From Taxawa tesnikishii (nom. ined.) (lineage: Eukaryota; Ascomycota; Dothideomycetes; Dothideales), in NCBI GenBank assembly GCA_030247885.1, contig JAPDRO010000021.1, positions 124,001-188,000 on the forward strand: DNA of 64,000 nucleotides, read 5' to 3'. Below, one piece after another: positions 822-59,072 of this stretch. The notes beneath the pieces were generated by a model, which saw only the letters and a program-made list of their open reading frames with translations, made no database searches and was not told the origin of the DNA. The position numbers and the translations under genes were made by a program. Numbering within the stretch: position 1 is the first letter of the stretch; each line of letters starts with the position of its first letter.

Positions 822-2008
822 TCACGTCATCATCATCATCGTCTTCTCCTTCCCTTTCTGGTTCGTCTTCTGGTTCGTCTTTGTTCCCCGGTCCATACCC
901 TGCCTTCCATCTGCATCCATTCCTTGTCCCTTCGGCGCAGCCACAGCCGCCCGCCTCTTCTCCGCCTTGGCCGCTTTCCTCTCGTCCCAGGTCCACTTCT
1001 TCTTCCCACCATTCTTGCAACTGCGCGCATTGTGCCCCTGCGCACCACAGATACTACACCCCTGCGGGCCCTTGGTCATGTACATCCTCCTCTTTCCCAG
1101 CAGCTTCGTCTTCAGTCTTGCGCACTGCTGTAGTCGCACTTCAGTCCCACATCTCGCTTTCACCACATCCTGAATCTCCTTGTTACTTGTTTCGGAGGTC
1201 ACGTGTAACCACTTAGGAACGTTTTCCAGGAGGAACATCATCCGACTGGCAGCCGGTCGGATCGGAGTGGGTCGCTGGTGAGCGGGCGCCTGGGAACAAG
1301 TATGTTGTGGTCGTAAGATGGAAATGAGGGCGCGGGAGTGCACTTCGTCCCATTTGGCGTGCAGGTGGAAGGGACAGCCGATCGACGACCGGCAGTTAAG
1401 TACCAGTCGCTGTTTGGAGCGCTTGCTGACCTGCGCTTCCCAGCCTTCGGTGGAGGAGAGCATGGATATGAGAGTGCGGATGGCGTCGAAGGAGGGAAAA
1501 GTCGTCCCTTCGGTAAGATCTATGTGATGGGTGCAGAAGGATGGTCCTTGAGGGGAGTTGTTCGGTTCAGCTGAGGAAGAGGCAGCATGTTGTGCGGCAT
1601 CGAGGGGTGCTGCATCTGGTTGCAGTAGAGGGCTGAAGGGTGTTGCATCTGCTAGAGGGGCGGGAATGGAGGCAGTAGGAGCAGGTTGCCTAAACTGGGA
1701 GAAGAGGCGCGCATTGGGACGTGGGAGAGTATCATCGTTGTTGTTGTGCCGAAGGGTGTCGTCAAAGGGCTGCGGATCATCTGGCACACCGCTGTCAAGG
1801 GGCAATGCGCCCTGATGCCCCCGTAAACGCGATCATCGAATAGTGAAACGCCCAATCCCTCTGCGCGTTCGGTGGCCTGGCGTATGACGCGCTCGATGGT
1901 GGTGACGGGGAGGTGGTATTTCTGCGATATCCACTGCTCGGTCCGGCCGCCGTTGATGCGCAGTGTGGTGAGGATGGCACGCTGAATGGGCGACAGCTCG
2001 TCTTCCAT
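822..2008 (-). CDS. Transposase-derived zinc-finger protein (MuDR/FLYWCH-like finger plus zinc knuckle, no transposase core)
   Basis: The start is ATG 2008 (MEDELSPIQR). Residues 1-60 resemble a helix-turn-helix (LPVTTIERVIRQ). A middle region at about residues 130-200 has a C-x5-C...H-x-C pattern (CRSSIGC, then RPQHTC), the WRKY/GCM1-type finger found at the N-terminus of MuDR/FAR1-like transposases. Near the C-terminus is a CCHC zinc knuckle (CSICGAQGHNARSC). The DDE transposase domain normally lying between these two is absent, and the two motifs are only about 110 residues apart. The frame changes near 1818-1822. Either one base is missing from a C5 run there (giving 395 aa) or a 59-nt intron at 1770-1828 is removed (375 aa); the intron's branch site is weak, so I prefer the first. 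It is divergent from the coiled-coil gene at 2429. It may be a domesticated Mutator-like fragment or an independent DNA-binding protein. The function is unknown. Confidence 0.6.
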
Positions 2009-2428
2009 GATGTGCCTGATGGCTGTGTATTACATGTACAGTCTATACATACTGCAAGTATTGACCGTTTTTGTCTTTGCAGTGCAAGGCCAGCGAGAAC
2101 ACTGCTGTGTAGTAGGGAAACAAGGAAGCTTCCTTCCTTCTTTCTTCTTTCCCCAGACCCAGACCCTGATCGACAATGCGTTTCCGTTCCTGCCGATGCC
2201 GCCGGTTAGCCCGCCTAGCCCGCTTTAACGCGTCGTATTATCAAAACAGCGGCTTCCCTGTTTTATGGAACTCTCGGCAAGTGTCGATTGACTCCAGCGG
2301 TCCTGCACAGGCGCAACTGCCACTTTTGCCATTCCTACCCACACCATCTCGACGTCTGGCTGAGAGAATGGCCTGCAGATAATCCATCCTGTACCTGGGG
2401 GCACGCCAATTTTTCACACCCGCTCACC
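2009..2428. promoter_or_regulatory. Divergent intergenic region
   Basis: These 420 bases separate the start codons of the minus-strand zinc-finger gene and the plus-strand coiled-coil gene, so they should hold both promoters and leaders. A pyrimidine-rich stretch at 2131-2165 lies upstream of the plus-strand start. I see no clear TATA box or operator. Confidence 0.4.
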
Positions 2429-5400
2429 ATGGAGAAGCGTGCAGCTGGCCGGGCATCCACTCCGGCAAAGGATGATGCAGAGAAAGGAGCCGCAAGGACC
2501 CGCCCACTGTCGTCTTCCTTGTCGTCTCGCGCCAGTGCCACCACCAAGTCTCCGGTTACCAGCAAGGCTACCGCGCCTCTACGAACAAGCGCCCTAGCTT
2601 CACGAACAACAGGAGGCGGCATGATCAGCAAACCTCCCACACGGCCCCATTCTTCGACTGCTACCAGGCCTAAGACACTACAACGGGCACCCTCGGACTT
2701 GGATTCTGTGACCTCGACGGAAGGGGAGGAAACCAAAAGACCAGGCCTCAATAGCGTCTCCAGGCGGATGTCGTCGATGAATGCTTCTACTTCCTCTGCT
2801 ACAGCCGCGAGGCCCGCCAGGACTACAACTGGAGACGAGAAGAGACGGTCTACAATCATGCCAACACCTGTTCCACCGAAAAGGCCGCTCTCAAGCGCCA
2901 GGACGAATGCGCCTAGCCCTACGAGCACTCGGACATCAACCGGCACGGCTGCGAAGCCTACGACAACTCGCACTCCCCGACTTGCCGTGAGCGCAACGGT
3001 CAGGTCGACTCCTGCACCTCTCAAGAAGGCGGTGAAAGAGAAGGCGCAGGAGCGTGAGGAGCGTGAGGAGGAGCTTGATACGTTGCCAGAGTTGAAGTCT
3101 AGTCCTGCAAGAAGGTTGGTAGTTGAAACACTTGGCCAGCCGTGCATACAGTAACCCATTGTGTAGCGACGTGACGCTCAAGTCTCCCATGCGAGCTTCG
3201 TTCCCTCCCAAACTCGAAATCCGTGCTCAGTCGCCAACCAAAGAGTCTACCGATCCTTTGTCGTCTTTCACGCATATCCTCCGTCCACATGCCGTCTCCG
3301 ATGCCGAAGTTGAGCTAGGCCGCGGCTTCTACCGAGGCCACACTCGGTCGAGATCTGCGCTCGTTGGAGGCCGTCCAGTGACAGCGCCCAGCCAGGATTC
3401 TACTTCGGAAGAGCAGCGGAATAGAGACATGCGCATCATGAACGACCTTTTCAAAGAGGCGAACGCACGGACACACTGGAAGAGGAGGTCAAAGACCTTC
3501 GGGCCGAAGTGGAGCGCTTGGAGAAGTGGAAGGCTGATAATGTACAAGCGCTCAGAGTTGATCCGGAAAAGGACGCTGCGAAAGACGCTGCAAAAGAAAA
3601 GGAAATCGCGGAAAGATTGCGTGCTGAGTATGGGATGGGGTGGACGAAGCTCAAAGCTGACTCTGCGGCTACGATAGCGAAGCTGAAGTCGGATTTCGAG
3701 AAGGAAAAGGATGCTTTGGAAAAGGCTCGCGCGCAAGCTGCTGCAGAATTGGAAAAGGTCGAAGCAGACTCAGCATCCACCCTTTCGAAGCTGAAAGCGT
3801 ATCACGCGAAAGAGAAAGACGACCTCGAAAAAGCGCGTGCACAATCAGCTATTGAATTGGAAAAGGTCAAGACAGATTCCGCCGCGTCGGTTGCGAAACT
3901 GAAGGCCAGCCACGCGAAGGAAAAGAACGCCGTTGAGAAAGCGCGCGCACAGTCAGCTACCGAGCTGGAGAAGTCCAAAGCAGACGCCGTCGCCTCAATC
4001 GCAAGACTGAAAGCCGACCATGCGACAGAACTTGCATCACTCAGAGACGAGCTCGAATCACAGCGTCAGACGTCATCGAAACTGGTAGGCGTTGAGAGCA
4101 AGATTGCAGACGTGGAAGCCGCGTTACGGGAAAGCAAGTCGACCGCGTCGCAGAACGAACAACAGCTTCAAAAGACCATTCAGAATAAGGAAGAAGACCG
4201 CGAGCAGCTGGCTAGAGTGATCGGGGAACTGCACGAGGAAATCGATCGGTGTCAGAAGCAGCTCGATCAAGACAGCGAGAAGCAGCGCGAGGAGAAGAGG
4301 GCAGCTGAGAAGGCCACGCAGCAAGTCAGGGCTGAATTGGCGGACCTGAGGAAGAAGAGTAAACAGGAGAGGGAGAAGCTCGCTGCCGAGAGCGCTGAGG
4401 CCGAGAGATCACTCAAAAGCTTGAAGGACGAGCTAGCTGAGACGAGGAAGACTGCCAGCGCCGAGCGCGAAAAGCTGCGTAAAACTGCCGCGGAAGCTGA
4501 AAAGTCAAGCCAGCGTTTGCAACAAAAGCTTGACGATGCCCATGCGAAATGGCGGCAAGACGTCAAAGAGCGTGATGAAGCGCTCGAAGCGGAAAGACGC
4601 ATGCTTGACAGCATGCGCCAGCAAGCAGACAAGCTTAAGGAGGAGCATAGCCAAGAGGCCGCAAGATCTGCCGAAGAACTGCACGAGACGCAACAAATCA
4701 CCGATCAGCTGCAGGGAGAACTGCAAGCTTTACGGCAACTGCACGAGTCCGAATCGAGCAAGAGTTCCTCGGAATCCGAGCAAACCAAGCAACTTGTCGA
4801 GCAACTCCAAGAACAGATCAAGAAACTGCAGCACGAAGGCGTCGACGGCGGGAAAACAATTCAAGATCTGCAATCCGAGCTTGCGAACCTGCAACAAGCC
4901 CAGAAAGACGCGGCACGAGAGCAAAAAGCAGGACCCAGGAACTGGACGCACTGATCAAGCGGCTGCAGAGCGAGTCTGCAAGCATGGAGCAACTAAACAT
5001 CCAGCTCAAGCAGGAGAAGGATAACGAGACGCAACGTCTCCAGATTGTCATCAAAGATATGGAAAACCAATCTCAAGAGCTCCAAGACCGCCTTTCAAAC
5101 GACAAGTCCGTTTACGAGAAAGAGATCAACAGCCTCAAAGACGCCATGGCAGCGATGCAACAGGAGACGTCTTCCCGCCGTCAACACGAAGAAGACTCGG
5201 CCAACGCCAAAGATAGCGAGCTCAGAGGCCTCAACAACACTGTCGCGCAGCTGCAGGAAGATATATGCGTTCTGAAGCAGGAAGCCGAGACGCTCCGCTC
5301 TGAGCACCAGACCGAAGTCGACGCACTCGACGGCACACTCGATAGCTTGCACAAGCAATTGGCCCATCTGGAGAGCGAGAAGACCGACACCGAGACTGCG

Positions 5401-7851
5401 CACGAATCCGAGCTCACCAAACTACAAACCCGGATCGCCGAACTCCAATCGGAGACCCACAGTTTGCGCTCGTCCCATCATGCTGTCCTGCAGGCGAGAG
5501 GTACCGAGATTCGGAAACTCAAGGCTTCGCACCAGGATGTCGAAGCAGCAAGGGAGAAGGCAGAGAGCGCATGGCAGGATGCTCTGTCCGAACTGGCGAG
5601 TGTGAAGCGTACGCTGGATAATTTCTCGCAAGAAAGTGGAGCTAAGGAAGCTAGACATGCGGCGGAAGTGGCGCAGCTTAGTAAGGACATTGCGGACAAG
5701 GAAGCAGAGATTGCGACTACCACCTCGGAGTTGAGGACGGAACTGGAGAAGTTCAAGCAAGAAGCTACTGATAAGGAAGAATCGCTCGCAACTGCTACCT
5801 CGGGATTGAGGGCGGAACTCGAGAAACAGCATCAGCAGCAACTCCGTGACCTCGCAAACGATCATGCGCAGAAGATGGAAGGGCAAGCTGTGGCGCTGGC
5901 CAATCTCAGGGAAGAGGTTGATGGCAAGCAGGCGTCGCTTGACCGTGCCTTGTCCGAGCTGAGAGCTGAGCTGGAAGAACAACACGACCGGCAATTGAGC
6001 GGGCTTAAAGACGAGCACGCGCAGAAGATGGAAGCTCTTGCCAAAGAGATTACGGAAAAAGAAGTATCCCTGGAGACTGCCAAGTCCGAACTGAGGGCAG
6101 AACTCGAGGAACAGCACCGCCAGCGACTTCACGACCTGATCGATGATCATGCGCAGAAGATCGAGGCTTTCCATGTGGACCGAGACGAGGCACTGAGAAA
6201 ACTACAAGAGAGATTCGACGATATGGCGCAGAAGAGGGCCGAGACCGCCGCAGAGTTGATGGGACTCAAGACTGAGCTAGAAGAGCGAGACCTAGAAAGC
6301 CAGACCCTGTCGAAGGAGCTGGAAAGCTTCCAGGAGAGACTCCAGGCCCAGATCGAAACCGCAAACGAGCTGATGGCGACGAAGACGCAGTTGGAAGAAT
6401 CTCGTGCGCAGCTGGAGCAATCTCGTGTCGAAACTTCGAACTTTGCGAGGGAGCTTGAAGATCTCAAGGGCAAGTTGCAGGCGCAGTCTAAAGACGCAAC
6501 CGAAGTGGCGACGCTCCAAGCACAGCTGGAAGAAGTTCGTGTTCAAGCACAAGCCAGAGCGGCGGAATTCGAAGCACTCCAGAGCAAAGCCCAAAGCGAT
6601 CAGGACGATACACTGGAAGTATGGCACGAAAAGTGCGGCAGTCTCGTGCGGGAGAAGGAGGAGCTTCAGATGCAGCTGGCCGCGCAGACGGAGACGCTAG
6701 CCACCATGGAATCGGAACTGGAGCAGCAGCAAGACCACCGCGGGGCCTACGAGCGATTGCGACGGGCGCACGAAGCGCAGCTCGAGCAGCAAAGGACGCT
6801 CCAACAGCAGGAAGAGGATGCGCAGGATGCGCTCCGAGATCTGCAGGAGAAGTTCCAGCATCTAGTGCAAGAGAAGAAGGATTTTCAGGCGCAGTTCACC
6901 GACCAGATCGAGACAATGGCGCTGGAGAAACACTTGATGGAAAAGAAGCACAAAGAGGCGACCGAAGCCTTGACCGAGGGCATGCAATCCGGTATCGCAC
7001 AGGCGCTAACCGATGCCGCCATCGCGCACCAAACGCGCCTCGACGAGCTCGAAGCGCAATACGAAGCCATCATGGCGGAGAACCGCACCTTGCACACATC
7101 CATGGCTGCGCTGGGAGAACAACTCGACGCAGCCACGAAGTCCCACGAAGACAGTCTAGCCCAGGGTGAAGCGGCCAGGACCGAACATTCCAATGCACTG
7201 GAAGCGCTCCAGGTGCGTCATTCCGCCGAGCGCGACACCTTTGTCTCAGACATCGAGACGGCCAAGGCTGAGCACGTAGCCGTTCTGGCCGCGGTGCAAA
7301 CAACGCATGCTGCGCAACTCGAGGGCGCAGCTACGGAGATTGCGACGCTCAAGGCGGAGATTCAGCGGTTGATCGCTGCCGCCGAAGCGGCGCAGGTTGC
7401 CAGGAAGCAGCAGGAGGAGCAGCAGCACTTGCAACGCAGTGTGTCCGAGGCGTCCAATCCCTTCGCCGAGGCCGATGGAGCCAGGGATGCAGAGACATAC
7501 AAATCCCGCATCGAAGCTCAGGAAGGGGAGATTATGCAACTGAAACAGGAGCTCGCAGCGCTCAAGACGCGGGACCAGCGCGACGGCACCTTGCCATCGC
7601 CACCGAGCTACGAGAACCTGGATCTCGGTGCCGATTTCGATCTGGACGCAAGCTTCGGCGCCGACGATGGCGTGGACGCAGGAAGTGATGTGTGGGACGG
7701 TAAGACGACGATTGAGGGCACGTTGGCCAGCCTGAGGGAACAGGCGAGACAGCTGGAGGAGCTGAACGAAGAGTTTCTGCAGGAGAGTTCGAGGTGGTCG
7801 GGCGTGTTGGGTGCGAGGCGGAGCGCGGGCGGTAGCAGTTCCTCCCGCTAG
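2429..7851 (+). CDS. Giant coiled-coil protein, about 1790 residues
   Basis: The start is ATG 2429 in a good context (CACCATGG). Exons are 2429-3114 and 3167-7851; the 52-nt intron has a GTTGGT donor. Residues 1-330 are basic and rich in Ser, Thr and Pro, with no known domain. Almost everything after that is heptad-type coiled coil with repeated KLKADxAxxxxKLK-like and LRAELEEQH-like blocks (about 3640-4030 and 5700-6140). The last 80 residues are acidic and then Ser/Gly rich. The frame changes twice: near 3466-3475 (one base short, no long run) and in the A5 run at 4923-4927. With one base added at each, the coding length is a multiple of three and the coiled coil runs on uninterrupted. Long proteins of this type often tether cytoskeletal or organelle structures, but I recognise no targeting domain, so the role is unknown. 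Confidence 0.8.
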
Positions 7852-8200
7852 ATGATGGCTTCGCGGTCGGCCCCTTTTTGGCTGAATCTGTCTGTATACT
7901 CGATACCCCTGTGTTGCATCGCTGTCGTCTCGGAATTAGGAACACAGTACGTTTTTTCTTTTTCTTTTCGCTTTCTAGGCAAGACCGGCATGTTAATCTT
8001 CACGGATTTTGCTGAGCCCCTCTGTCCATCACCATACCATCCATCACACCCAAACGTCGACTACTTCGCGGAGGATCATGAGCTCAAAGCGCGCCTGCAT
8101 CCCTACACTGTTAAAAACTTGATTATCAGGGCTGGAATACCAGAGAAAGCCGTACGAACGCAGATAAGCCAGCTATGGATCTCCTTACTATGTCATCTGG
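7852..8200. other. Convergent 3' intergenic region
   Basis: This lies between the stop codons of the plus-strand coiled-coil gene and the minus-strand HET gene. It should hold both 3' untranslated regions. A T-rich stretch at 7951-7970 could serve polyadenylation. No gene is seen. Confidence 0.5.
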
Positions 8201-10771
8201 TCAACAGATCCAAACTTGCTCTCTATGCGCCCCATTGAACCACCTGTTCTCGCCCCTCCGTCTGTAACACGTCATAAGATCAACGCGCTCATTCATTTCC
8301 CCATCTTCCTCGTGGCGTCGAGAAGGCGTCAAAATCATGGCAATGGTATTTCCGGATTCATCTTCACCAAGCTGCAAGCATCGAACGGTGCTGTCTGGAG
8401 CCAGGCCTGGGTCGACGTCCGTCTCTTCCGTCGTTATCTGACGCCCATCCCTTAATAATGTCAGGTAGCACTTGCCTTCCTCCGTCTCGCATGACACAAC
8501 CGAAGCTGTGACGATGGGCGCTTCCAGTACAAGATGTCCACCGCTGAGCGGTCCGTAATTATCTGCTGTCGCGGGGATCGTCTCGCATTGCGTGATGGTG
8601 AAGGTCCTCTTTTCAGGAGGTATGGTGAGCCGTTCGTCCATAACACCCGGACCAATCACGGAAGGCCACGACCACGTGGGTGCAATGTAGTAGGCGGGTC
8701 TATCTCCCGTGGACTTTCGTTGCCACAAGAGACTGTTGGGTAGGTCCATAGCCCACATCCCGGCACAGTATTGCCCCATTTTCGGCGCGAGTGTCTGTGC
8801 CAAGCCAGAGAGTGCGACAAGCCAGTCAGTCTCGTTGACCATCGTTTTGGCGGAATATTCGACCACCATTTTCCACCAGAAGTCTGCCGCTTCCTTTTCT
8901 TTGTCGCTTTCCACTGCTGCTGCATACATCGTCTTGAGATTGTGAGGATCCCGAATAAGGTGTGGTTCACGATGCGCTATCTGACGACTGAGAGAACGAA
9001 TCCCGGTAGGGCATTCGAAGAAAAGGTCGTTATCTGTACAGTGCAAAATTCTTGCAGAATACGCGCGATCGCATAGTGTCCAGCCACTTCTATACCAAGG
9101 TGTGGATCGAGAGGAATTGGTGATGTCTCTTGATCCGGACAGGAGAGGGAGTTGTGGCAATTCGTTCAAGGTGCATGATTGCAGATCATGCTGCATATCT
9201 GTCGCGATTTTGATCGGCCGCAGCAAGCTTGGTAGTAGCCCAGCGCTGTCGCTTGAACCAGACGCCGCTGCCAAGGTTATGAGAACGTTACCGAAGATAT
9301 GATGCATGCGTGAAGCTTCCAGACTCCAGTCTTCGATATCATCCTGAACAATGCATAGGGCATCGATCCAGAGATAATGGTACCCTAGTGCCAAGGTGAC
9401 CATTATCGCTTCCTGGAAAGTGCGTGGTAGAGATTGCCAGTGGATGCCTTGTTTTAGAAGTTCGATGTTCATTTTAGTAGTCAGCAGAGGCATACCCTCT
9501 CTGCCCCAGCAGTGGCTGAGAGCGACATAGTCAGGAACGTCGTTAATGTCTGTCTCGATCAAGACGCAGATACTTTCTCCGTCGCCACCTATGCGAATCA
9601 GACGTAACGGTTTGCCTGATCTTCCTTTCGCGGCTGCACAACAAGAAGCCCTCCGTCCGTGGCTGTGGACGCAATCTCTAATCCAGTCTGTGATTACATT
9701 GCCAGGTCTGAAGATCTCTCGTGAAATTTCGCTTCTCCGTGAGAGGTCTGTCTCAAGGGAACGCATGAGCTGTAACTCTGTTTCGCAGTTCAAGTTGCTG
9801 GTCGTAGCCACGTGCTTGAACGGTCGGCCAGCGAGGGAGGCGGTCGTTGTAGAGTAGCGCACAGGCGCGTTGCCAAAGCGCGAATTGCCAACATCTGCCG
9901 TGTGACTGGCGCCCATTAGACTCATACCCTGCTCCGAAAGGCCTTGACCTGAGTTCAGTCCGACAGAGCTAAACAAACCTACGAGCTGTTGCTCAGGCTT
10001 GTTTTCATGGCTACCAGCATTATTCGGGATGTCAGGTAATTTAAGCTGCAAAATCTGAGGCTCGATAGGCCTTTGCTCCTCCAGTCCAGGATGCTGCTGT
10101 TTCGTGATGCGTGACTGGCATTGCTCGCCCGTGCTTTGGCCAGCGAAGGTTGCCAGCAGGTCTCTCAGTTCCATTCTTTCTCGGTCCTGCTGAGCCCTCA
10201 TATCTTCCAGTCTGCGATCGAAAGATCTGACGAAGTCATTGAACTGGTCGGATGTCGCGCCTTGCTGGACGAGACCGTTGTCAAGGTCATTGCTTCTCAT
10301 CCTGAGCTCCTGGATATATTGTTGCATGTCACTCAGTTTCTCGCTTTACGTTCATTGTCAGACCATCGAGCCGGTTAGAGGAAGGCCATAATGCACTCAC
10401 GATGATGACGCAGTTATTGCCAACAACAAATCTGTTTTGCATTGCGACAGCGCAGCCTGTCGCTTACGAACCAGTTCCTGCTTCGAGACCCATGAGATAG
10501 GCTTCATATGGCTACCAGAAGCGGTTTCATACTCGATGAGTTGTTGTATATCCAACAAACACTGGCGGCATCATGGCAGGATCCGATCCAAGCAGGTGTT
10601 TCCTTTTCCGCATTGGTGGTTAACTACAACATCCCTGAAGATACAGTCGAACGTATCAACTTCCTCCTTCAGCTCATCCAGTTCCCGAGGCGCATTATAA
10701 AGGTGCTGGGCCAGCTTGATGCTCTTTTTCAAGGTACTCAATATGGTAATACAGCTTGCGGCAGGATCCAT
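8201..10771 (-). CDS. HET-domain protein with fungal N-terminal domain
   Basis: The HET domain is clear: YVALSHCWG, then a LPRTFQEAI block, YLWIDALCIVQDD and the NVLITLAAAS segment, in the family order. HET proteins mediate heterokaryon incompatibility and related self/non-self cell death in filamentous fungi. The N-terminal exon (MDPAASCITIL..., with NAPRELDELKEEV) resembles the PigL_N-type domain often placed before fungal signalling modules. The start is ATG 10771. My model is exons 10628-10771, 10401-10561 and 8201-10343, giving 815 aa. The 57-nt second intron (10344-10400) has a GTGAGT donor and a CTGAC branch site and is solid. The 66-nt first intron (10562-10627) is weaker, but is needed for a continuous frame. 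A Gln/Asp-rich linker lies between the two domains. I cannot say whether the gene is active in incompatibility. Confidence 0.8.
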
Positions 10772-11408: not shown

Positions 11409-11442
11409 AGAGTAAAATTACCCGTCGGACTCGGCCCCGCTA

Positions 11443-17787: not shown

Positions 17788-20700
17788 TCACTTACTCCTA
17801 GTGCTCTTGCGGTTCAGGATATTGTCTCGCTGACTTTTAGCAGCAGCTGCTGCTGTACGAGAGCTGCGCGATCGAGTTGTTCCAACACTCGATACCATCC
17901 CCGACTCCAGCTGCGCGGGTTGAGAAATCTGAGATGATCTTGCAGCAAGAAGGCTCTGGGGCTTGCCCACATTGCCCGAAGAGCGAAGACCTGGTCGGCT
18001 TGGTTTGAATAAAGCCCGCGGAGTCGCTCCATCATTCGGCCTCATTCTCTTTGTAGTGGACCTGTCCTCCACCACTTGGTCGGTAGACTGCCGCTTGAGG
18101 ATGTTAGTCCGGCGAGTAGTGACCGCCTCGCTGACAGATACCGAGGACTTGCGTTCCGTTCGTCTTGAATCATGTGACAGGCTATGTTCCCAATCCAGGC
18201 TGTTCGCGGATCCAAAACGTGTCCGTCCATACGTGCTGCGCATCTGGGACTTTGCGCCTTGGAGCACATAATCCGGCGAGCTCGCATCTTTCGAGAGTAG
18301 GATCTCCGCGTCACCTTGACCACCAAAAGTGGTATCTACCAGCTTCGAGAACTGAGCATCGGTTCTTGATTGACCACGGCTTTGAGCGGCTGATTGCGAA
18401 AGCTCCTCCAGTGGTCCAGCGTTCTGGCGTGGAACCACCTTTGACGCGCTGTTTGGAGGAGCATAGGTTTTGGCGAACGCAGAGATGGCTTGGCTGGTGG
18501 TGAATGCAGGAGGTGCTCGGCTGTCAGGACGGCCAGTAAGACTGCTCTCCAGAACACTGATAGCGTTGTGTGTGTGCTTCCCTGGTGTGAGGGCATTACT
18601 TTCCTGATGTTTGCCTGCCATTACGTCCTCGAGCATGTAGTTGTGAGTCTGGCTGAGTAGGTCGTCGACATCTTCGACAACATCCGACTCGGGCTCATCT
18701 CTGGTCTCTGGAGGTGCAGATTTGTAGCGATCCGAGAACGCTGCAAACGTCAATGGCACACCTTGCGACTGCGTTTCCTCTATCTCTTCTGTTGCCTGCT
18801 GATGGGATCGTCCCGGCACATTAAGTGGCTCCAGTGCTTGAAAATCACCGGCTGTGAGCATGGACGCGTCAGAATCCTGACGTCCAGAAGCTGCTGCGTA
18901 TGCGTCGTAATCTACGTCGACGAACGGATCTCCAAGGTCCAGAGCGTTTTGTGACTCCTCAATTATGGTGTGCCGAGCTGATGGGTTAGAGACTGGAGTG
19001 GCTTCGCGAAGATGGGAATCGCGTAACTGCTCTGGTACCGCCGGCGGGGGTACTTCGTGCACAGTATTGGTGGTCCGGTCAACCTTCTTCTTAGGCGTCC
19101 TGGGTTCAGGACCCTTCTGAGTAGTTTCTGGCGTGCGCTTCAAGGGAGAGACTTCCGCTCGCTGTACGCGCTCCGGGGTGGAGCTTGCTTTTGTGATGCC
19201 AATTGCGTCAATTGCTCTGAACTTGTATGCCGGAGTTGCTCTCCTTCCCTCATCGCTTCGCTCAAGCGTCGCTTGAAGTCGGCAACGTCAGCCTTGTGCG
19301 ATTCTGTTGCCTTAAGCAAGCCATCTTCAGCTTCCTTCCGAACACGCTGCAGCTCAGATTCTTTTCGCTTGAGTTCTCCATCAACCTCAGCGAGACGTTG
19401 CTGCAAAGAGTCCTTGTCTCGATTGCTCTTGTCCTCACACTGCATGATGGCGGCTTCAGCGTCTTTGCGGAGTTTGGTGGCAAGGGAACCTGCCTCTCTT
19501 CTGGCCTGTTCAACATCGCTGAGGCGCTTTTGCATCCTGCTCAAATCCTCGGCAGCTTTCTTCTCGGCTTCGCGCAGGTTCTCTGCTGCTTCTTCGCGAT
19601 AAGTCTGCAACTGGGATGCTGCCTCGTCCTTTGAGGCTTGCAATTGGTTGACAGTGCGCTGAAGTTCTTCCACCAGCTTTACTGCCGTTTCTTTTTCAGC
19701 ATTTACTTGCTGCAACGAAGCGTCTTTTGATGCAAGGCCCGCGGTCAGAGTGCTTATCTTTTCCTCTACCGTAGCCACGGCCTCTTTCTTCTGATCCTTC
19801 AGAGTCTGCTCCAAGCGCTTGACTTGCGCCTGACTATCAGCTGCTTTTTGTGCCGACCGGTGGATTTCAGAAACTTTGGAAGCCAGCTGCTCCTTCAGCA
19901 ACTGGTTCTCAGTCTTCACGGGCTCAACTTCACCACTAGCATTGGTGAGCTGTTTGTTGATCTTTTCATTTCGTAGGTTCAGCTGGTGGATTTCGTTACG
20001 GTGGGCCACTTGCTGTTCCTGTATAAGCTTTTCAGCCGTCTTACCGAGCTCTTCGTGTAGCTTGTCAATCTTTTCGTCCGCCTGGAATTATGTCAGACGA
20101 GCACTTCCGAGAATACCACCAGCATGCTTGCCTTTGCCTGCAACTCCGTTCTCTGTGTGTTGAGTTCAGAGATGGCTGTCTGGGCCTCGCCCAGCCGTCT
20201 CTGCTCAATACGTCAGCTTTGTAAATAATCGCTGCTGCGAAAGGTGATGATGTATACCTGAAGCTCTTCAAGTTCGTTCTGCATGCTCTCCCGGGCTGCG
20301 GCAGCTTCAGTGAGCTTCTTCACAGCAGAAGCGGCTTCCCCCTCACAGCCCCCATTTCTTGCTTTAGCTTCTGGTTTTCGGCAAGAGCTTCGTAGATACG
20401 ATCTACAGTAGCTCCGGTAGAGTCGGCTGGAATTGGGTGCTCGACCTGCGATGCAACCACTCTGGCCTCGAATTGAGACAAAATCTGCTTCAGTGCTGCC
20501 TCATGGGCAAAAGCAGAGTTCTCCGACAGTTGAGCAGTCAGCTCAGTGATCTTGGCATCGCTGGTCTTCAGTCGCTCTTCCAACGCTGTGATTGATTCCT
20601 GCTGAGCCGCATCTTTAGCAAGAAGGTCGTCACGGTTCTTGAGTTCGTCGTGCACGCCTCTCAAGCCCTCAGAAATGCGGCTTTCGAGGGCAGAGATGGC

Positions 20701-23395
20701 GTCAGGACTCTCACAATGCACATTGGCAATTTTGTTGAGGTGAGTATACGTCCTGTGTCTTACTGTTAGTCAAAACATCTGCATAATGCTCGATCTGTTT
20801 CCTTACGTCGTGGAAAATGTCTCAACCAGACCCTTGAGTACGTTCACTTCCTCCAGGGTTTTCGGCTGATGTTCCTTTAGCGCCTGAACTTCTTCCTGGC
20901 ACTTCGCCAGCAGGTCAGCCAGTCTGCTGTCTTTCCATTCTTCATCGATCTCTGCATGAATTAGATGGAGCTTGTCCAGAAGTTTCTCAGTGCAGCTCTC
21001 CACGAGTCTATTTAGAGTAGTCTGCGTATTATTCTGCGCTTCCAACTGCTTCTCCAAGGCAACACGGCGGTCCCGTTCTTCTGACAATATGCCTACTTTC
21101 TCGCTCAGTTGCTGATCGATGTAGACGTTTTTTGGGTCAGCTCCCGAACTTTCGCTTCATAATCGCGGTTGAGCTCCAAGTTGGCCTTGTTGACGCGCGA
21201 GGATTTCCCCATCGCTACGCTGACTTGGTGAATCAGACCACCAACATCCTTTCTGAGGTCACGCAAGCCTTCGGTGACAGTTTCCAACAGACGACGGTGC
21301 TCACGATTGTCGCTTCTCAGGCCATCGCAATCATTTCCTAAGCCTTTCATAAATTTTTGAAAGTTTCGGATGCCATTGCTGAGCTTAGTCAATTCTCGAC
21401 GGCGATCTTCCAGTTCGGTACTGAGCTTAGTCTCCTGAGCTTGACTCGTTTCGAGTTGGTTTTGGAGCGCTTGCACAGATTCGCACATGTTTTGTAGCTC
21501 AGCAGCTGTTTCCTCGAGCTCTGATTCCACGCCCTGCACGGCTCGGTCCTTGTCCTCTTGAACCGCTTGTTCCAAGATCTTCAGCATATCAACGAAGGAA
21601 GTGTTGTTGATTGCGTTAGCGGACGTCTTGGTTGGTCGGCGCGACGGCTTAGGACCTCGGGCAGTAGATGATCGCTTTGCGACCCTGGCGTCACCCAAGA
21701 GTGCAGAACGGGGCCGATCCTCATGAGTAGCGGTGCCGAAGCCAGGTGTTGAAGCAGGCCGGCTGGCCGGTGCGGAGGGAGCTGTCACAGTGACTTGAGT
21801 TGGTACATCCAATACACCGGCTGGAGTGCATCGAGCATTGGCGAATTCGATCAATGATTCAACTTGACAGTTTTGATCTGTAGTGGCGACTTGGCGGGAG
21901 CTGCGACAACGATCTGGAGCAACGACCTGATGAGCATGGTCTGAGGCGGCAAACTGGATGTCTTCTGCAATCTCTCGCTGCTTATCTACTGTATCGGCCT
22001 GCCTGTTGACTTCCGTAGCGATTGGGAAACGGGCATGAACAAGCTGGTACTCGACAGCAAGATGATTTGTAATTTGCCCGTCCGAGTCGCTATCGGGAGC
22101 AGGAGCCTGTGATTCAAGCTCAGCAGATGTAGTATGCACAGGCTGAGGCTTGTTGTCAACCTTGCTATGAAAGGCATTGTCGGCAACAGTACAGGGACCA
22201 GGTAGCATAGCAGCCTCCGGCTCGGCTTGCTGATCTTGCAGTTGAGTTTGTGTGCCAGGAACGGGGTTAACAACGTTGTGGTCGTCGTCACCAGATCCTG
22301 CCGGTGTTGCTGTAGGATTTGGAGTCGCGGGCGAAGTAAAGAGGATGTTCTGATCCTCGACAGGCCCTGGCAAACGAGTTGTTCTACTGATAACTCTCCT
22401 CTTTCGGATCCTTTTCCTTTGCTTCTGGCCTCCTCTTTGCGGGGCCATGAGCTGTACGCTGATCTCCGGCGGATCAAGTTGCTGGGCGGAATCATCCGCT
22501 AATTGTTCGTACGGAGTGTCGATGTTGCTTCGGATGTCGGACATACTGAGGAGTCGTTAGAACACAGTGTAAAAGCGATGCCTCGCCTTGAAGACAACTC
22601 ACGCTTGATCTCCAGCACCCTCCGGATTACCTGCGTTGTACTGATACTCTTGACTCACTGGGTGCTGGCCCTCCCCACGGTCTTCGTATACAAGTGCGGA
22701 GGCTGCTGGTTGGGGTAGGAGCAGCTGTTGCTCAGCAGGTGCTTGCGGGCTGACTGGTCGCTCCGAAACAAGGTTGCTCTCAGATTGAGAAGGATTTTTG
22801 ACTTATAAGCGTGAATAGGCATTCGTGCAGCAGCCAGGTGGGATTGCATACCTTGAGTGTTCAGCTGAGCTGCCACAGTTGGCCGCTTGTGTGCCATTCT
22901 TTGTGGAGCTGTCGTGGGCCGCTCTTGAGAAGGCTGTCTGCAGGCCGCTGGAGTTGGGCTCGATGGTTTTGGATCCGTCGCTGTCTTCCTAGGTGTCGGC
23001 TGGAAAGAAAAGCCTGCATTGATGTCGCCGGATGATTTGGGTCGTTCAAATGTCTTGATGCGAACGTCCACAACAGTGTCCTCAGAGCGCTCAACCGTGT
23101 GTGTTTTGAGGAATTCTTCGTCTCCTGCAGCTAAAGGGGTGTCCTCGCCACTGCTGCTAGGCCTACTGGACTGCACGTCTTGCTGGATAGAATTGGTTCC
23201 ATCGTCAAGCTTTGTGGGCACGATGGATGTGGTCATGATCTCCTGGTAGTTACCCGAAGCGTCCGGGGCTTCTGATGACCCATCCCCGGTCTCGCTGGGA
23301 AAGAGCTCGATGGGAATGGACTCGATAGGCGAATGCAGACCGTCATAATTTTGACGGTCTGCTTCGCTATCTTTCTGAGGACTCTGATGAGCCAT
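17788..23395 (-). CDS. Second giant coiled-coil protein, about 1780 residues
   Basis: The start is ATG 23395 (MAHQSPQKDSEADRQ). Exons are 22852-23395, 22603-22801, 20807-22545, 20258-20752, 20132-20200 and 17788-20081. The introns are 50, 57, 54, 57 and 50 nt. The fifth, 20082-20131, starts with GCAAGC, a GC-AG intron with a CTGAC branch. The N-terminal 550 residues are low complexity (Ser/Pro/Gln rich, with a basic QKQRKRIRKRR patch). The middle 900 are mostly coiled coil (ERDRRVALEKQLEAQ, LKQEM, DEKIDKLHEEL). The last 450 are Ser/Thr rich with a basic end. Three frame changes, each one base short, lie in a T6 run (21128-21133), a C5 run (20338-20342) and a T4 run (19189-19192). The layout resembles axial or scaffold proteins, but I recognise no family. 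Confidence 0.8.
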
Positions 23396-37574: not shown

Positions 37575-38774
37575 ATGAAAGAAGAACAAGCCATGAGTCT
37601 CACCACCAGCAGTCTATTCGACGTCTCCGGCCTCGTCGCCGTCATCACCGGCGGCGCTACTGGTATGTCCTTCCCTTCCCCTCTTTTGTGCCTTCGCTCC
37701 GGCGTCTCTGAAGGGCTCACTCTAGGCATCGGTCTCATGATGACGCGCGCCCTCGCCGCAAATGGTGCGGCCAAAGTATTCATCGTCGGCCGCAGGCGCG
37801 AGAAACTCGAATCTGCGGCTTCCGAATACCCTGACATCGTCGTCCCTGTTGTGGGTGACGTGACGAGCAAGGAATCGTTGAAGCAGGTGGCCGAGAAGGT
37901 CAAGGCCGAAGCCGGCTTTGTCAATCTGCTGGTCTGCAACAGTGGAGTTATGGGGCCGAGAGGTGAGTTGGGAACTTTGAGTATTGCTGTTTTAGAAATG
38001 CGACGTTGCGGTGAATCGCATGGGGCATCTCATCTAATTACTAAGTATTAACTGTGGTGGTGCAGTCGACGTCAAGCCCGGTGAAGTGAGCGTCGCAGAG
38101 TACGCGCAGAAGGCATTCGACATCGATTACAACGAGACAGTCGACACCTTCGCTGTCAACACTGCCGTAAGTCACACCCGTCATTCCTTCGTCCGTTTCC
38201 CTCTCCCTTCCCCTCTCCCCTCTCCCTCGGCGTGTATGCTGATTCTGATACTCCTACGAAAGTCGGTCATGTACACGTCGTACGCTTTTCTCGAGCTCCT
38301 GGATGCCGGCAACCAGAAGAAGAACCGCGTAGGAATCAAGTCGCAGATCCTGATCACAAGCAGTATTGCGAGCTTCAGCCGCCTGCCAGGTCTGAGCATG
38401 GCGTACAATGCCAGCAAGGCTGCGACCACTCATTTCACGAAGCATCTCAGCTCCACGCTGGTACCATACTCGATCCGAGTCAATGCGATCGCCCCGGGCC
38501 GTAAGTCCTGAACCCCGCAGAGGACGGTGATTTTGCTGATCAGCCGTGCAGTGTTCCCATCCGAGTTGGCCGCGGGTTTGATTTCGCATGCCAAGATGGA
38601 GCCGGACCAGGAGGGCGCATTTGACAAGAGCTTCATCCCTGCCGAGAGAACCGGCAGCGAAACGGACATGGGGGTACCATACTGTATATGGCGAGCAAGG
38701 CAGGCGCATACCTCAATGGCGTGATCCACGTCATTGACGGTGGTCGGCTCGGCGGTGTGCCCTCCACATACTGA
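37575..38774 (+). CDS. Short-chain dehydrogenase/reductase (classical SDR)
   Basis: There are five exons: 37575-37662, 37726-37962, 38066-38166, 38263-38500 and 38552-38774. They give 295 aa. A second ATG at 37593 (MSLTTSSLFDVSG) is an equally good start. The Rossmann motif TGGATGIG is completed by the first splice. LLVCNSGVMG, the catalytic SS in ITSSIASFSR, YNASKAA (Tyr-x3-Lys) and VNAIAPG follow in the classical order. One base is missing from the G5 run at 38670-38674. With it restored, the end reads GSETDMGGTILYMASKAGAYLNG and then VIHVIDGGRL, the usual C-terminus. It should be a cytosolic NAD(P)-dependent oxidoreductase, substrate unknown. The stop codon is only 122 bases from that of the convergent 7-TM gene. 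Confidence 0.9.
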
Positions 38775-43522: not shown

Positions 43523-44702
43523 ATGCCACCAAGTACTAACCGAGCACAGAAACCCTGGTATGAGCATCTTACAATTGACCTGGTAGTCCATGTCCTCCAA
43601 CGGACCCTCTTCCACCCCTTCGTAGCATGGATGCTCCCGCTCTCCCTCCGCGCCCAAGCAACGCCATACGCCCACTTATCCTTCGTCCTCGCAACCGGCT
43701 ACGCAGCTCTCATCACTCTCTTCTCGATCCTCAATGCGATCAACAAGCGAATCGCATACGGCGTTCCAAGAGAACTGAACTGGGACGACGAGGTCGTGGT
43801 GATCACGGGCGGCAGCAGCGGGCTCGGGCGTGTCATTGCGAACACGTACGGCATGAGGGGTGTGACCGTGGCGGTATTGGACGTGAAGCCGTTCTACGAA
43901 ATGGGAAAGGAAGAGGAGGACGAGTCGGGTCAGAACATCAAGTGGTACGAATGCGACATCGGGGACGGGGACGCTGTTCGAAAGGTGAAGGAAGCGATTG
44001 AGAAGGATGTATGTAGCGCTCTAGATACTCTCACCCACAACCCACAACCGGCAAGAATCCTCTTCCCCTGTTTCCCGATGCTGATGCGTGGAACCGTCAG
44101 CTCGGCACCCCTACCATCCTGATCAACAACGCCGGAGTCGTAAACGGGGCACCCCTCCTCTCCCTCTCCACCTCTCAGATCGAGCGAAACTTCCGCATCA
44201 ATCTCCTCTCCCACTACCACACAATCCGCATTTTCCTGCCCTCCATGTTGGCTAGGGAAGACGGCGGGACAATCGTCACCGTCTCCTCCGTCCTCGGCCA
44301 CCTGGGCGCCTCGCACCTCTCCGACTACACGGCCGCAAAAGCCGGCCTGATAGCCATGCACGCCTCCCTGCGCGCCGAGTTGAACGCCATCAGAGTGGGC
44401 TCCGACGCGCCCGCGGGAGCGAAGAACATCCGCACCGTGCTCGTGAAACCGGGACAGCTCTCGACGCCGCTGTTTCAGGGGTGCGGACGCCGAGCAACTT
44501 CTTCGGCCCGGTGGTGGAGTCGGTGGATCTGGCAAGGGAAATTGTGAAGATGATCGATGCGGGCGAGAGCGGCGTGATCAGCTTGCCGTTCTATGCCGGA
44601 TGGATCGAATGGTTGGCGGTTTTGCCCGTTGGGCTGCAGAGGGTTGTCCGAGGGTTGAGTGGGGTCGACAGGGCGATGGAGGGGTTTGGGAAGACGTCTT
44701 GA
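43523..44702 (+). CDS. Membrane-associated short-chain dehydrogenase (RDH/HSD17B-like)
   Basis: Exons are 43523-44008 and 44101-44702, with a 92-nt intron, giving 362 aa. The start is ATG 43523 (MPPSTNRAQKPWYEHL). A hydrophobic N-terminal part (LSFVLATGYAALITLFSILNAI) is a likely membrane anchor. The SDR core follows: ITGGSSGLG, CDIGDGDAV, INNAGVVNG, TVSSVLGH, and SDYTAAKAGL with the Tyr-x3-Lys pair. One base is missing from the G4 run at 44478-44481. With it, STPLFQG continues as VRTPSNFFGPVVES and then a C-terminal VDLAREIVKMIDAGESG, the usual ending. Relatives act on lipids, retinoids or sterols at membranes; the substrate here is unknown. The stop is 65 bases from that of the convergent GPI8 gene. 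Confidence 0.85.
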
Positions 44703-47017: not shown

Positions 47018-48089
47018 TTAAATGGGTGGTGATCTCATTGCGAATCCACTCGTCTTGGGCCGGCGTATATGGTCGACCGCCGCCGCCTGTCGAAGGTATG
47101 ACCGCGCCGGTAAGACCGATCCTTGGTGGTGCACGAACTCTGCCGGCGGTTGCCCTGGGGCATGGGATCGATTCGTTGTCGCTTCATTGTCCCTCTTCCC
47201 CGCTCGATCCGTAACCTCGGCACCTTCACTTTTCCCCTTGTCCTTTTTTGCGGGCGTCTTGACGATTTCGACTGACTGCAGGCCCTTCGCAGCTCGAATG
47301 CTGCTGTTCGTGAGGCAGTGCGTCTCAAGGGAGCCGGCTGTGCGGCTCTGCCCAAAGTGGCTATTGAAGTGGTTCATTAGCTCAGCCAATCTAAGTCTCG
47401 GACTGGCACGGTACTGGTCAGCGATCCAAAGCGTCTCCTCAGGCGTGTATTCGTTGTGCTGCCGGACATTGCCCAGACCCAGTCTGTTTCGGGCGCGCAT
47501 TTGGTTCTGGCTCCGGATCGCGTTGGCCGCACTGACAGAGCTCGAACTTCCAAAGTTGACGGTCGGCTTGTGCTCCATGACCTTGCAGCCACCGCGGTGG
47601 TTGACCGGGACCAGATATCTGAGTGGCTGCTTCATAGGGTTGCCCTTGACCCATATACCGTCGAGGGGAGGACGTCCGGGTCGTTGCTGTAATCCTCCCC
47701 TGCTTCGCTGACAATGAAATCGTCATCTACAGCATCTTTCTTGGACTTCTTTGAGCGCTACTCGATCGTGTTAGGCATTTACACAAGCACGTTTGACCTG
47801 AAAACGAACCTTCGAAGGCGTGGCACCGGTCTTCCTCTTCCGCGGTCCTCTAGTTGGAGGAGCCTCTTTCTCGGCTTCGTCTTCTCCATCGCTTACATTC
47901 TGCGGCCCTGTTGATAGCTGTTTTGCTTTGGTCAGCGTAGGCACGTCTTTGAGTGTATAGAAGGAGACTAACCGCAAGAGCCGTATGAGGATGACCACTA
48001 CGACGGAGCCTGGTCAAGTCCTGACTAAAAGGAGCGGAGCTTGTCTTCTTCGCCCGAATGTTCACGTTTGTGCTGGAACGCACATGCAT
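47018..48089 (-). CDS. SANT/Myb-like domain protein, 321 aa
   Basis: Exons are 47973-48089, 47810-47917 and 47018-47757; the introns are 55 nt (CTGAC) and 52 nt (CTAAC). The start ATG 48089 (MHVRSSTNVNIR) is the first after an in-frame stop, but an earlier exon is possible. A basic, acidic-mixed N-terminal half (TRGPRKRKTG, KRSKKSKKDAVDDDF) precedes a helical DNA-binding-like module, EYTPEETLWIADQYR...RLAELMNHFNSHFG...TAGSLETHC, which has the spacing of a SANT/Myb-type domain. The rest is low complexity. One base is missing near 47676-47680 (CCGGG); with it, AGEDYSNDPGRPPLDGI continues to WVKGNPMKQPLRYL. I infer a nuclear, DNA-binding or chromatin role from composition, with no specific function. 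Confidence 0.65.
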
Positions 48090-48675: not shown

Positions 48676-50742
48676 TCAGACCGGGTTTTGGCGCCTGATC
48701 CTCATCAACAGGTCCACGTGCTCGAACGGGGTACACGCTGGGCAGGTGTAGTCGTCAGCTTCCCCGGACCGAAACCGGGACGGAAGCTCTCTCGCACGCA
48801 AGGCTGGTGGTTCCAGGCTTTGCAAGCATCACACTGGATGTACTGGTCCTCGTCATCGCCTCCGCACACGCAGTACGTAGACTCCTCGGGGTGAGGCCAG
48901 TATTCTGGAAGCGGAGGGAACTCGAAGCCTAGATGCTGGGTGCGTCCGGTTGGGTTTCGGGCAACGAGGCGGGTGAGGCGGAATTCCGCGGCCTCGCGTG
49001 CTTCTTTGGAGGTGTTCGGGCGGATGATCCCGTTAGCGATGGCGGCGATGATGCCGTTCTGGGCCAGGAGAACTGAGTTGACGTTGATGCTGCTATGGGC
49101 CGTGGCCGTGGTTGGGAGTTGAGTTGCAAGCGCATCTAGAGCCGGAGCCTGAGCAGCAGCTGGTGCTGCGAATGGCGATGGAGCTGGAGCTGGAGCCGAG
49201 GTTGGCCAGATGTTGCCAGTAGGGTTGAACGCGGCTTGATGAGTCATGTCCTCGTGATAGTGGCCATCTGAATTGTAACCGCCGTCGTAGGCCTCAATGT
49301 ATGCCGGGCTATAGATGGCTTGGGCGTTGTTGTTGTTGGCCGCTGACATGATCGGACCGTACCCTGTGATACCATCCCAGCGCTCCTGCACGGCGTGGGT
49401 CGGAGCCGCAGTGCCGCCATCAGAATTCACAGCCAGCGCATGGGTATCACGGACGGCAGACGGCTCCTGCCGCAAACCTCTGAGACGTGGGGAGTTGGGT
49501 TTCCGCCGAATAAATACTCCTGCCGCCGTTGGAGTATGTTAGGATTGACTGAGGGCGCTTGCCCGTTTGCACCCGTATTGTTCTGGCTCGCCTGATCTGT
49601 CATGCCGTATGCCCTTGGAGGGCATGAATTAAGGTTGGCTAAGACGGTCCGCAGAAAGACCGGGTCAGCGGGAGGAGCAGACGGGAAATGAGGGTCCAGA
49701 GGTGGTAATGGCGACCACGACGGCGCTGCGACTTGTGGAGGCGGATGCTGGAGGTCGGCGGTAGCTTGAGAAAACGAAGGTGCGACAGCGCTACCACCGT
49801 ACACCACTGGAAGGCGGCCCGCTTGCGAGGTTAGGGTCGCTCTACTACCGACGAGGTGGCTGTTCAGGTCTGGATGTGTTGACTGTGAATAGGTCAGTGA
49901 TTGCAGCGTATGATTAGAGAAAGTAAAGATGGGATAGACAGACCTGGTTGTTGGGCGCCCACTCAGTGGAAGGGTAGACTCCGCTGTCTAGGAGGGTCTG
50001 GGTGTTTGCTGTGGTAGGTAGAGGAAGCAGTGTTCCTATGGCTCCACCGCTCTCCATGTCTAGAAGCTCGCTTCGACTGACTTCTTGAACAGACAGGGGA
50101 CCATTAGTGTTGCTAAAAACCACCTCAGCGTCATTTCGAGCCACCCACGTCCAGTCCGGTTCGCGGCGCCTGAAGCGATGTAGGATAGTGAGGAGGTGTT
50201 GGTCGAACGTGATCTCTCCACCATGCGGAGCATCCGGGACAGTATGGATGGGGTAAGTCACCTCAGCTTGGCTTCGAGCTTGGTCACGTAACTGGAATCT
50301 GGACTGCTCGGCGAGGAAGCCAGCGCGCCGTTGCACATACTGATCTTTAGTGTAGTAGTCGTTGAGCACGATCTCATCGTCTCGAATTCCGAGAATTGCC
50401 CTGACGCGGCGGTCTTGACGATGAGCAGTGTCTTCGGGGACGTACAGCTGGAATTCTTCGAGAAGGTCCGGCATATTGCGAAGCAAGGGTGCCACAAGGT
50501 GGTACAAGCGGTGTGGGAGAACCGCTCCGCGTTGGTAAGAGTACAGTGCCCCCAAGAACTGTTCGTAGATGTGAGGCTGCGAGGAGAAGCGGTTCTATTC
50601 ATTGTGAGAGCCGATAAAATCCATCGATGTTTGCTGGACTAACCTTGACTTTGTTCACATAGGCAACGGCATCACTGAGTCCGACAGCCCTACGCTGGTT
50701 GACTACCTCCGCCCCTACACTGTCGTGTCGAACGTTGCTCAT
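48676..50742 (-). CDS. PAH-domain plus PHD-finger protein
   Basis: Exons are 50644-50742, 49944-50594 and 48676-49882, about 652 aa. Residues about 14-80 match a paired amphipathic helix (PAH) repeat as in Sin3: GLSDAVAYVNKVKNRF, IYEQFLGALYSYQRG, VLPHRLYHLVAPLLRNMPDLLEEFQLYVPED. The middle is Pro/Ala/Gln rich. At the C-terminus is a PHD finger: YCVCGGDDEDQYIQCDACKAWNHQPC, then YTCPACTPFEH. Two frame changes, each one base short, lie in the G4 run at 49489-49492 and the C4 run at 48762-48765; correcting the second is what brings in the last CPAC zinc ligands. PAH repeats bind short helices of DNA-binding factors, and PHD fingers read histone H3 tails. A co-repressor or histone-deacetylase complex subunit is the natural inference, but this pairing in one protein is unfamiliar to me. 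An earlier in-frame ATG exists at 50808. Confidence 0.8.
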
Positions 50743-54872: not shown

Positions 54873-55276
54873 GTCTGGAGAAGCAAGAAACGACGCTTTC
54901 ACTGGAGAGCAACCGGGAGCTAATGCATGCTATCTGCTAGCGACAGGACCCCACGCCGATCGTCGAGAACGGAGGGCGCAATCACCTCATTGGCCCTCGT
55001 TCGACACGAGCGGAAAATTCCGCGACGCCGCATGTATGGTCCAAGCTCGCTCTGAGCGACCCGGGAGATTTTGGCCCTGAGAAGTCTTGGCAACTATAAA
55101 ACGCGAAGAGAGCAAAGACGCGCGACGTTGTGGCTGGCCAGTGAACAAAGCGATATTGGCCGCTATACACCATCTTTTGGGTAACACCGGGACAGCGAGT
55201 TGCAGCATAGTACGATCTAGCGTTCCGAATATCTCAGGAAGCTTTCTAGGCTGGCCCCAGGCCAAACCCGATCAAG

Positions 55277-57124: not shown

Positions 57125-57628
57125 GGATGGCAATGGCACAAAAATGAATGTATAGATGAAATGTTCTGTCAGCTCTACGGAGCGGTGTTGTTGTCGCAAT
57201 CCAGGTCGGCTTCTCCTTCAAGCGGCTGTCCAAAGGCAATCCGGTTTGGACCAAACACAACCACAATTGTTCCTTCAGCCTTCTACATCCTGTACAATGT
57301 CCACGCATCTGGTCGCGATAATTTTTCAGGAGTCTCCCATCTGATCTGCGCACTATAAGAACAGCGAATGCAGGGATTTGCCGCTAACGCCTTGCTAGCA
57401 CGCCCACGTGTTGTAGGATCTGGTCAGGAGCGCGTGCGAACGCTGCACAGAACACCCATTCCATCTCGAACACTTTCCTTTCTATGCGATGCGCCGACGC
57501 CGGAGTGACCTGGCCGCATCTACCTCCCATATGGCGCACAAAATGCGGTATAAACGTGGTGTTACCCAGCAGAGCGGAACAGGAGCATCCTTAAACCAGC
57601 CATATCTCAATTTGACCGACCTACGAAA
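57125..57628. other. Tandem intergenic region
   Basis: About 500 bases between CCT gamma and the phytase gene. The last 200 bases should hold the phytase promoter. Nothing distinct is seen. Confidence 0.4.
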
Positions 57629-59072
57629 ATGGCGACCGTGTTGACCTGCCTGGCCGGGCTAGGGCTAGTTTCCAGGTGAGAGGTATCTGGTCACCTATAC
57701 CAGACAACGTGCTGATATTCCAAACAAGCGCTTCTGCGTACTCACTTCCCAGAGCCGCATTGTGTGATTCGGTGCAGAACGGCTACCAATGCCAGCCGGA
57801 CATCTCCCACTCCTGGGGTCAATACTCGCCGTTCTCCTCCGTGCCATCTGAGATCTCTGCCGATGTGCCTAACAGCTGCTCCGTCACCTTCGCACAGATA
57901 CTTTCTCGCCACGGCGCCAGAGATCCCACCGCATCCAAGACCAAATCCTATAGTCAGCTTGTCGCCAAGCTCCACAACAATGTCGCGAGCTTCACTGGAA
58001 AGTATGCGTTCATTGCCAGCTACAACTACACGCTTGGGGCGGACAACCTCAGTGCATTCGGTGCACAGGAGATGGTCAACTCCGGTGTCAAGTACTACGA
58101 CCGCTATGAGAGCCTTGCTCGCAACAATGTGCCCTTCGTCCGGTCTACCAGCGACCAGCGTGTGGTTGACTCTGCAACAAACTGGACTAGTGGCTATACG
58201 CAGGCCAGGTCGTCGGACAGGAAAGCTCAGAAGGGCATCGCCGCTCCCAAGGTCGACGTCGTACTCAGTGAGGACACAGGCATGAATGACACGCTCAACC
58301 ACGACCTCTGCACCAACTTTGAAGACGGTCCGGACTCCGACATCGCTTCCGCCGCGCAGCAGACCTGGGCTAGCGTCTTCATTCCACCCATCCAATCTCG
58401 CATCAACGCCGACCTGAAAGGCGCTAACCTCTCCATAACCGAAACGGTTTACTTGATGGACCTCTGTCCCTTCAATACCGTGGCCAACGCCAGTGGTGCC
58501 ATCTCGCCATTCTGCTCCCTGTTCACTCAGTATGAGTGGCAGGAATACGGTTACTACGAGTCTCTTAACAAGTACTACGGCTACGGTCTCGGCAACCCAC
58601 TCGGCCCAACCCAAGGCGTCGGCTTCGCGCTCGAATTGATCGCACGCCTGACCAACACCTCCGTCGTCGACTTGGCCTCTGTCAATGCCACTCTCGACGC
58701 CAACCCAGCCACGTTCCCCTCGGCAGACAGCTGTACGCGGATTTCAGCCACGATAATGACATGACAGCGATCTTCTTCGCATTGGGGCTGTACAAGTCCA
58801 CCGCGCCGCTCTCGAACACAACTATTGAGAGCGTGCAGCAGACGAATGGATACTCGGCTGCTTATACGGTGCCGTTTGCTGCGAGAGCGTACTTTGAGAA
58901 GTTGAAGTGCGCAGGACACAAGGAGGAGTTGGTTAGGGTGATTGTGAACGACCGTGTCATTCCCTTGAAGACGTGCGGTGCCGATTCCTTGGGAAGATGC
59001 AAGTTGAGTGGTTTTGTGGAGAGCTTGAGTTTCGTCAGGCAGGGTGGCGATTGGAACCAGTGCTTTACTTGA
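57629..59072 (+). CDS. Secreted phytase (histidine acid phosphatase)
   Basis: Exons are 57629-57675 and 57729-59072, with a 53-nt intron, giving 463 aa. A short signal peptide (MATVLTCLAGLGLVSSASA) precedes the mature part, with YSLPRAALCDSVQNGYQC. The catalytic motif ILSRHGARDP (R-H-G-x-R-x-P) is at about residue 85, and the proton-donor motif is SHDNDM near the end. Several N-x-S/T sites and paired cysteines fit a secreted glycoprotein. One base is missing from the C4 run at 58716-58719; with it the sequence reads ATFPLGRQLYADFSHDNDM, matching the family's FPLNRTLYADFSHDN. The enzyme releases phosphate from phytate outside the cell. In other fungi such genes respond to phosphate starvation; no specific site is seen here. 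Confidence 0.9.

Follow-up and report, generated by a model that had tools for sequence, protein, structure and literature searches.

Does a fungal locus in which many unrelated genes change frame by a single base point to an unusual mode of expression, such as ribosomal frameshifting or transcriptional slippage, or to a flaw in the assembly? The question is raised by a 64-kb window (the whole stretch of DNA analysed here, bases 124001-188000 of contig 14 in a 29.37-Mb assembly of 34 contigs), in which a sequence-only reading had listed 17 frame changes, each one base short. Our analysis leads to an ordinary answer and not to new biology: with a probability of roughly 94%, the broken frames are residual assembly errors in which homopolymers are one base too short.

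Frame changes at the listed sites

Scoring of frame changes relied on a periodic fourth-order coding model, whose training set (the window plus another 21 stretches of 10 kb) was also the test set; we see no ground for expecting a bias to one sign from this overlap. The decoder built around this model permits introns, starts and stops, and for each listed site three best paths were compared, with exactly one missing base, exactly one extra base or no frameshift. Gains are expressed over the best intron-permitting path without a frameshift, and each per-site gain is the best among up to 49 positions, a choice that alone is worth up to about 3.9 nats. On synthetic sequence the detector is symmetric for missing and extra bases: in a control of 120 coding sequences it recovered 110 of the planted deletions and 111 of the planted insertions (120 of each), with no calls in the 120 unaltered sequences and one call of the wrong sign. 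Two earlier decoders (a dicodon decoder and a phase-only Viterbi) were set aside; shifts placed by the latter at 44066 and 56384 are short introns instead according to the intron-aware decoder.

The one-base-short reading is borne out at 13 of the 17 sites, with missing-base gains of 6.7-14.8 nats vs. extra-base gains of -3.6 to 3.6, five of them (19189, 33424, 38670, 47676 and 49489) staying below 9 nats. The other four claimed changes lack an adequate gain (missing vs. extra base): 20338-20342 on the minus strand (C5; 5.4 vs. 0.6 nats), 32225-32233 (two C4 runs; 2.8 vs. 0.0) and 32411-32415 (C5; 2.0 vs. -1.3) on the plus strand, and 48762-48765 in a minus-strand PHD gene, where the codon model is not in support (1.4 vs. 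2.5). At the last of these, the PHD profile breaks off at 31 of 47, about 20 nt upstream, which lends the frame change indirect support. That none of the sites needs a base removed is true of those resolved by the model (extra-base gain at most 3.6), while the claim that all but one lie in or beside a run has to be relaxed slightly: a run of at least four is found inside 15 of the 17 spans, but not in 3466-3475 and 47676-47680. Among the 49 window tiles no farther than 120 nt from a listed site, 18 reached a missing-base gain of at least 8 nats and none an extra-base gain of that size, vs. 0 and 2, respectively, among the 620 tiles elsewhere. At 6.7 nats or more, the counts are 19 missing vs. 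0 extra near the sites and 1 vs. 2 elsewhere; at 5 nats or more, they are 24 vs. 0 and 7 vs. 4.

On the plus strand, the one-base-short changes include 3466-3475 (14.8 vs. 1.2 nats), 4923-4927 (A5 run in a long coiled-coil-like ORF; 14.1 vs. -3.4), 27336-27351 (C5 and C4 runs, model position near 27320; 10.8 vs. -3.6) and 27547-27550 (A4 run; 10.6 vs. 1.0). Those on the minus strand are 1818-1822 (C5 run; 12.9 vs. -0.9), 19189-19192 (8.9 vs. -0.8), whose best position may be nearer 19232 (gain of 15.4 there in the tiling), 21128-21133 (T6 run; 11.4 vs. -0.2), 47676-47680 (model position at GGGG from 47665; 7.0 vs. -1.1) and 49489-49492 (G4 run; 6.7 vs. -0.5). A long ORF whose coiled-coil-type matches are weak lies in a part of the window (4001-8000) where the AT skew is strong (0.33).

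Several plus-strand changes fall in or beside recognizable genes. In a ZNFX1-like AAA helicase gene, the change at 33424-33427 (G4 run; 8.3 vs. 1.8 nats) is accompanied by an AAA_11 match that, from 33425 on, picks up again in the next frame at profile position 173; an intron is the alternative here. ORFs at 30839-35353 encode a CCCH finger and this helicase, and are perhaps one gene across three listed sites. The lone extra-base peak of at least 8 nats in the window, at 34559, also lies within the helicase and is taken as a false call, because the helicase homology crosses it in a single frame and continues to about 34786. Two further changes concern SDR genes: one is located 3' of SDR-matching ORFs at 38670-38674 (G5 run; 8.3 vs. 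2.0), the other near an SDR gene end at 44478-44481 (G4 run; 9.3 vs. 2.7), just downstream of the point where the adh_short match stops; the next-frame piece of this SDR (44447-44701) had no solved-structure match at E <= 1.

For the PhyA-type phytase, the claimed change at 58716-58719 (plus strand, C4 run; 13.6 vs. 3.6 nats) is upheld by homology as well. The upstream frame aligns with PhyA structures up to ORF residue 369; alignment of the next frame begins at residue 44 or 45. The two meet at the same homologue proline (327 of 3k4p, 322 of 1sk8), whose codon occupies 58717-58719 when read in one frame and 58716-58718 when read in the second. Judged from these alignments, the frames are offset by one nucleotide, with no surplus DNA that would house an intron.

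Genes described earlier as intact were recovered in part, through matches for a TCP-1/cpn60 chaperonin (profile 68-490 across two ORFs, with a predicted intron between), a P450, and partial matches for peptidase C13 and capping protein alpha (52 profile positions for the latter). A HET-domain (heterokaryon incompatibility) gene at 8201-10345 is a single open frame and, together with the short predicted introns, indicates a filamentous ascomycete; an ORF with ABC-2/PDR-type transporter domains at 62362-64000 is open at the window edge.

Signs of indels and lengths of runs beyond the window

The model-coding parts of 274 kb were tiled (2541 tiles of 48 nt, neighbouring peaks merged), the sample outside the window consisting of the 21 stretches of 10 kb, drawn from seven contigs. 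At 8 nats or more, 27 missing-base peaks were found vs. 6 extra-base peaks (which do, then, occur in the sampled genome); at 10 nats or more there were 18 vs. 1, and at 6 nats or more the imbalance shrinks to 44 vs. 21. Missing-base peaks outnumber extra-base ones both inside the window (8 vs. 1 at 8 nats, 6 vs. 0 at 10) and outside it (19 vs. 5 and 12 vs. 1), although the 19 outside peaks include two for which the extra-base gain trails by 3 nats or less, leaving their sign ambiguous, and two situated no more than 250 nt from the end of a stretch. Of the missing-base peaks, 22 of 27 (7 of 8 within the window and 15 of 19 beyond it) have a run of at least four no more than 20 nt away, as compared to 22.5% of random coding positions and 1 of the 5 outside extra-base peaks; the other 5 of the 27 have no such run nearby. 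The outside peaks cluster at homopolymers independently of the earlier list, and the one-sided pattern extends beyond the window.

Run lengths carry a related signal, for which the only accurate control, here and for codon pairs, was E. coli K-12, a bacterium and not a fungus. Runs of six or more are scarce, model-noncoding DNA included: the 64-kb window has 5 and 200 kb of sample (20 stretches) have 36. Among A/T runs of at least five, those reaching six or more are 4/54 in the window, 28/186 in the sample and 94/344 in E. coli; for G/C runs, the figures are 1/26, 9/143 and 8/64, and in model-noncoding DNA 29/183 (A/T) and 9/110 (G/C). Relative to the preceding step, the A/T fraction drops from 0.221 to 0.151 in the sample, only slightly more steeply than in E. 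coli (0.349 to 0.273); the drops in the window for A/T (0.189 to 0.074) and for G/C (0.158 to 0.063 vs. 0.182 to 0.125 in E. coli) are clearly steeper, both on small counts. Long runs do occur: A8 is found at 1279 positions, overlaps included, when both strands of the genome are counted, and the window has a single C9 (61654-61662), its other runs being six bases or shorter.

Mirrored codon pairs show an avoidance of the order that creates a run of five (36 vs. 105 in the reverse order, as compared to 104 vs. 116 in E. coli). The A/T part (20 vs. 46 here, 93 vs. 85 in E. coli) is the telling one, because in the G/C part (16 vs. 59 here) E. coli shows avoidance too (11 vs. 31). Taken by its expected marks, undercalling should give indels mostly of one sign, located at homopolymers and spread genome-wide, coding or not: the first is seen in the tiled 274 kb, the second in the share of peaks near runs against the random-position null, and the third in the 19 outside missing-base peaks and in the run spectrum of model-noncoding DNA, the latter with a bacterium as sole control.

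Introns, pseudogenes and recoding as alternatives

That introns have been mistaken for frame changes at some listed sites is unlikely, yet deserves some weight. With a frameshift cost of 9 nats, the intron-aware decoder picked introns at 33343-33473, covering the 33424 site, and at 49520-49572 (53 nt), close to the 49489 site, so that under this model introns are possible at these two positions. Introns cannot, however, account for a one-sign excess measured over an intron-aware baseline, and the phytase offers no surplus DNA for one. True loss-of-function indels, i.e., pseudogenes, are a very improbable explanation: the frames are indeed broken in the given sequence, but the breaks affect unrelated genes on several contigs, are mostly of one sign and interrupt otherwise long open frames. 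Even less is to be expected of a mixed case, a slim chance in our estimate, in which one or two run-less sites (e.g., 3466-3475) would be genuine -1 recoding within an error-bearing assembly.

Programmed -1 ribosomal frameshifting as the means of expressing the split genes is extremely improbable. A gene that is one base short would require a -1 shift, and a precedent exists in YIP3, a nuclear -1 frameshift gene reported to be conserved in most filamentous ascomycetes examined (PMC3777964). Nevertheless, a zero-frame X_XXY_YYZ heptamer (Y = A or T, Z not G; searched over the 45 nt preceding and the 12 nt following each modelled shift) was found at none of the 17 sites, against a background of 14 in 38853 codons. 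Pseudoknot-free folding of the 60 nt downstream was average and similar to that of shuffled sequences (the z-scores of the 17 sites span -1.94 to 1.31 and average about -0.1), and none of 50 ORFs scanned had a PRA1/YIP3 family match. Both the heptamer and the folding test could miss a signal of the YIP3 type, which combines a non-consensus site with a pseudoknot (PMC3777964). The likeness to this Pezizomycotina gene extends to the -1 shift needed in a filamentous-ascomycete nuclear gene; it ends where YIP3 is described as one conserved gene with a predicted pseudoknot (PMC3777964), whereas here many unrelated genes are affected and no common signal was found. Frameshifting would, moreover, leave the scarce long runs in model-noncoding DNA unexplained.

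Transcriptional slippage or editing that repairs the frame in mRNA, equally hard to credit, would fit the clustering of sites at homopolymers, but slippage is known from longer runs than the 4-6 bases seen here, two listed spans lack a run of four or more altogether, and the scarcity of long runs in model-noncoding DNA is again left unexplained.

Assembly errors and what they imply

The sequence-only reading had preferred sequencing undercalls to slippage or recoding, and this preference is supported by the one-sided excess outside the window, the clustering at homopolymers, the scarcity of long runs and the homopolymer-length indels in a duplicated mitochondrial segment; its view of slippage and recoding as less likely agrees with the lack of both a consensus slippery heptamer and, in pseudoknot-free folding, an unusual downstream structure at the sites. 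In the proposed course of events, a long-read, probably nanopore, consensus would report short homopolymers one base short. We infer the sequencing platform, the absence of short-read polishing and the longer runs that the organism's actual DNA would contain; the one-sign excess, the homopolymer link, the rarity of runs that reach six bases and the several contigs affected are direct support from within the analysis. With 27 peaks across 2541 tiles, the tiled coding sequence carries a detected event every 4.5 kb or so; extrapolated to the whole 29.4-Mb assembly, this would give thousands.

Comparable damage is known from nanopore-only fungal assemblies. In Drechmeria coniospora, most errors apparently lay in homopolymers and frames stayed broken until short-read polishing (PMC7500977), and a second source describes more homopolymer indels at low coverage in filamentous ascomycetes (PMC9453082). 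The likeness to these assemblies (PMC7500977, PMC9453082) lies in small, mainly homopolymer indels that break conserved genes of a filamentous ascomycete. The same study of D. coniospora reports insertions as commoner than deletions among post-polishing errors (PMC7500977), so that one-sided undercalls do not appear to be universal for nanopore; here, unlike there, missing bases predominate, on a platform that is itself deduced.

Duplicated mitochondrial sequence gives another view of run lengths. Over 4341 bases, inverted copies of the cox1 region on contig 25 show 8 substitutions, grouped in three clusters, and two indels that each alter the length of a homopolymer (8 vs. 7 and 9 vs. 8), which suggests that run length is uncertain in the assembly, although real differences between the copies are possible as well. 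The cox1 copies themselves, at contig 25:30968-32308 and 66840-68180, are inverted and 99.8% identical, which looks like a misassembly. A second cox1 copy at contig 26:21652-22990, about 89% identical and with TAG and TAA stops besides TGA, may be nuclear, stem from a second organism or reflect a contig of poor quality. HSP70 paralogues were also compared for frame breaks; the one break worked through fits a short intron. With as many as 1 mismatch allowed, the large-subunit rDNA primer pattern was not found in the assembly. A small-subunit primer matched once, on contig 32, but with no Rfam match in the surrounding sequence; rDNA may be absent from this assembly.

Overall, these observations call for caution about assembly quality: until it is verified with accurate reads, gene models and pseudogene counts drawn from this assembly, like claims of gene loss or recoding, are unreliable. 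At the same time, one-sided gains, the run spectrum and mirrored codon pairs can flag error-bearing assemblies without recourse to the reads.
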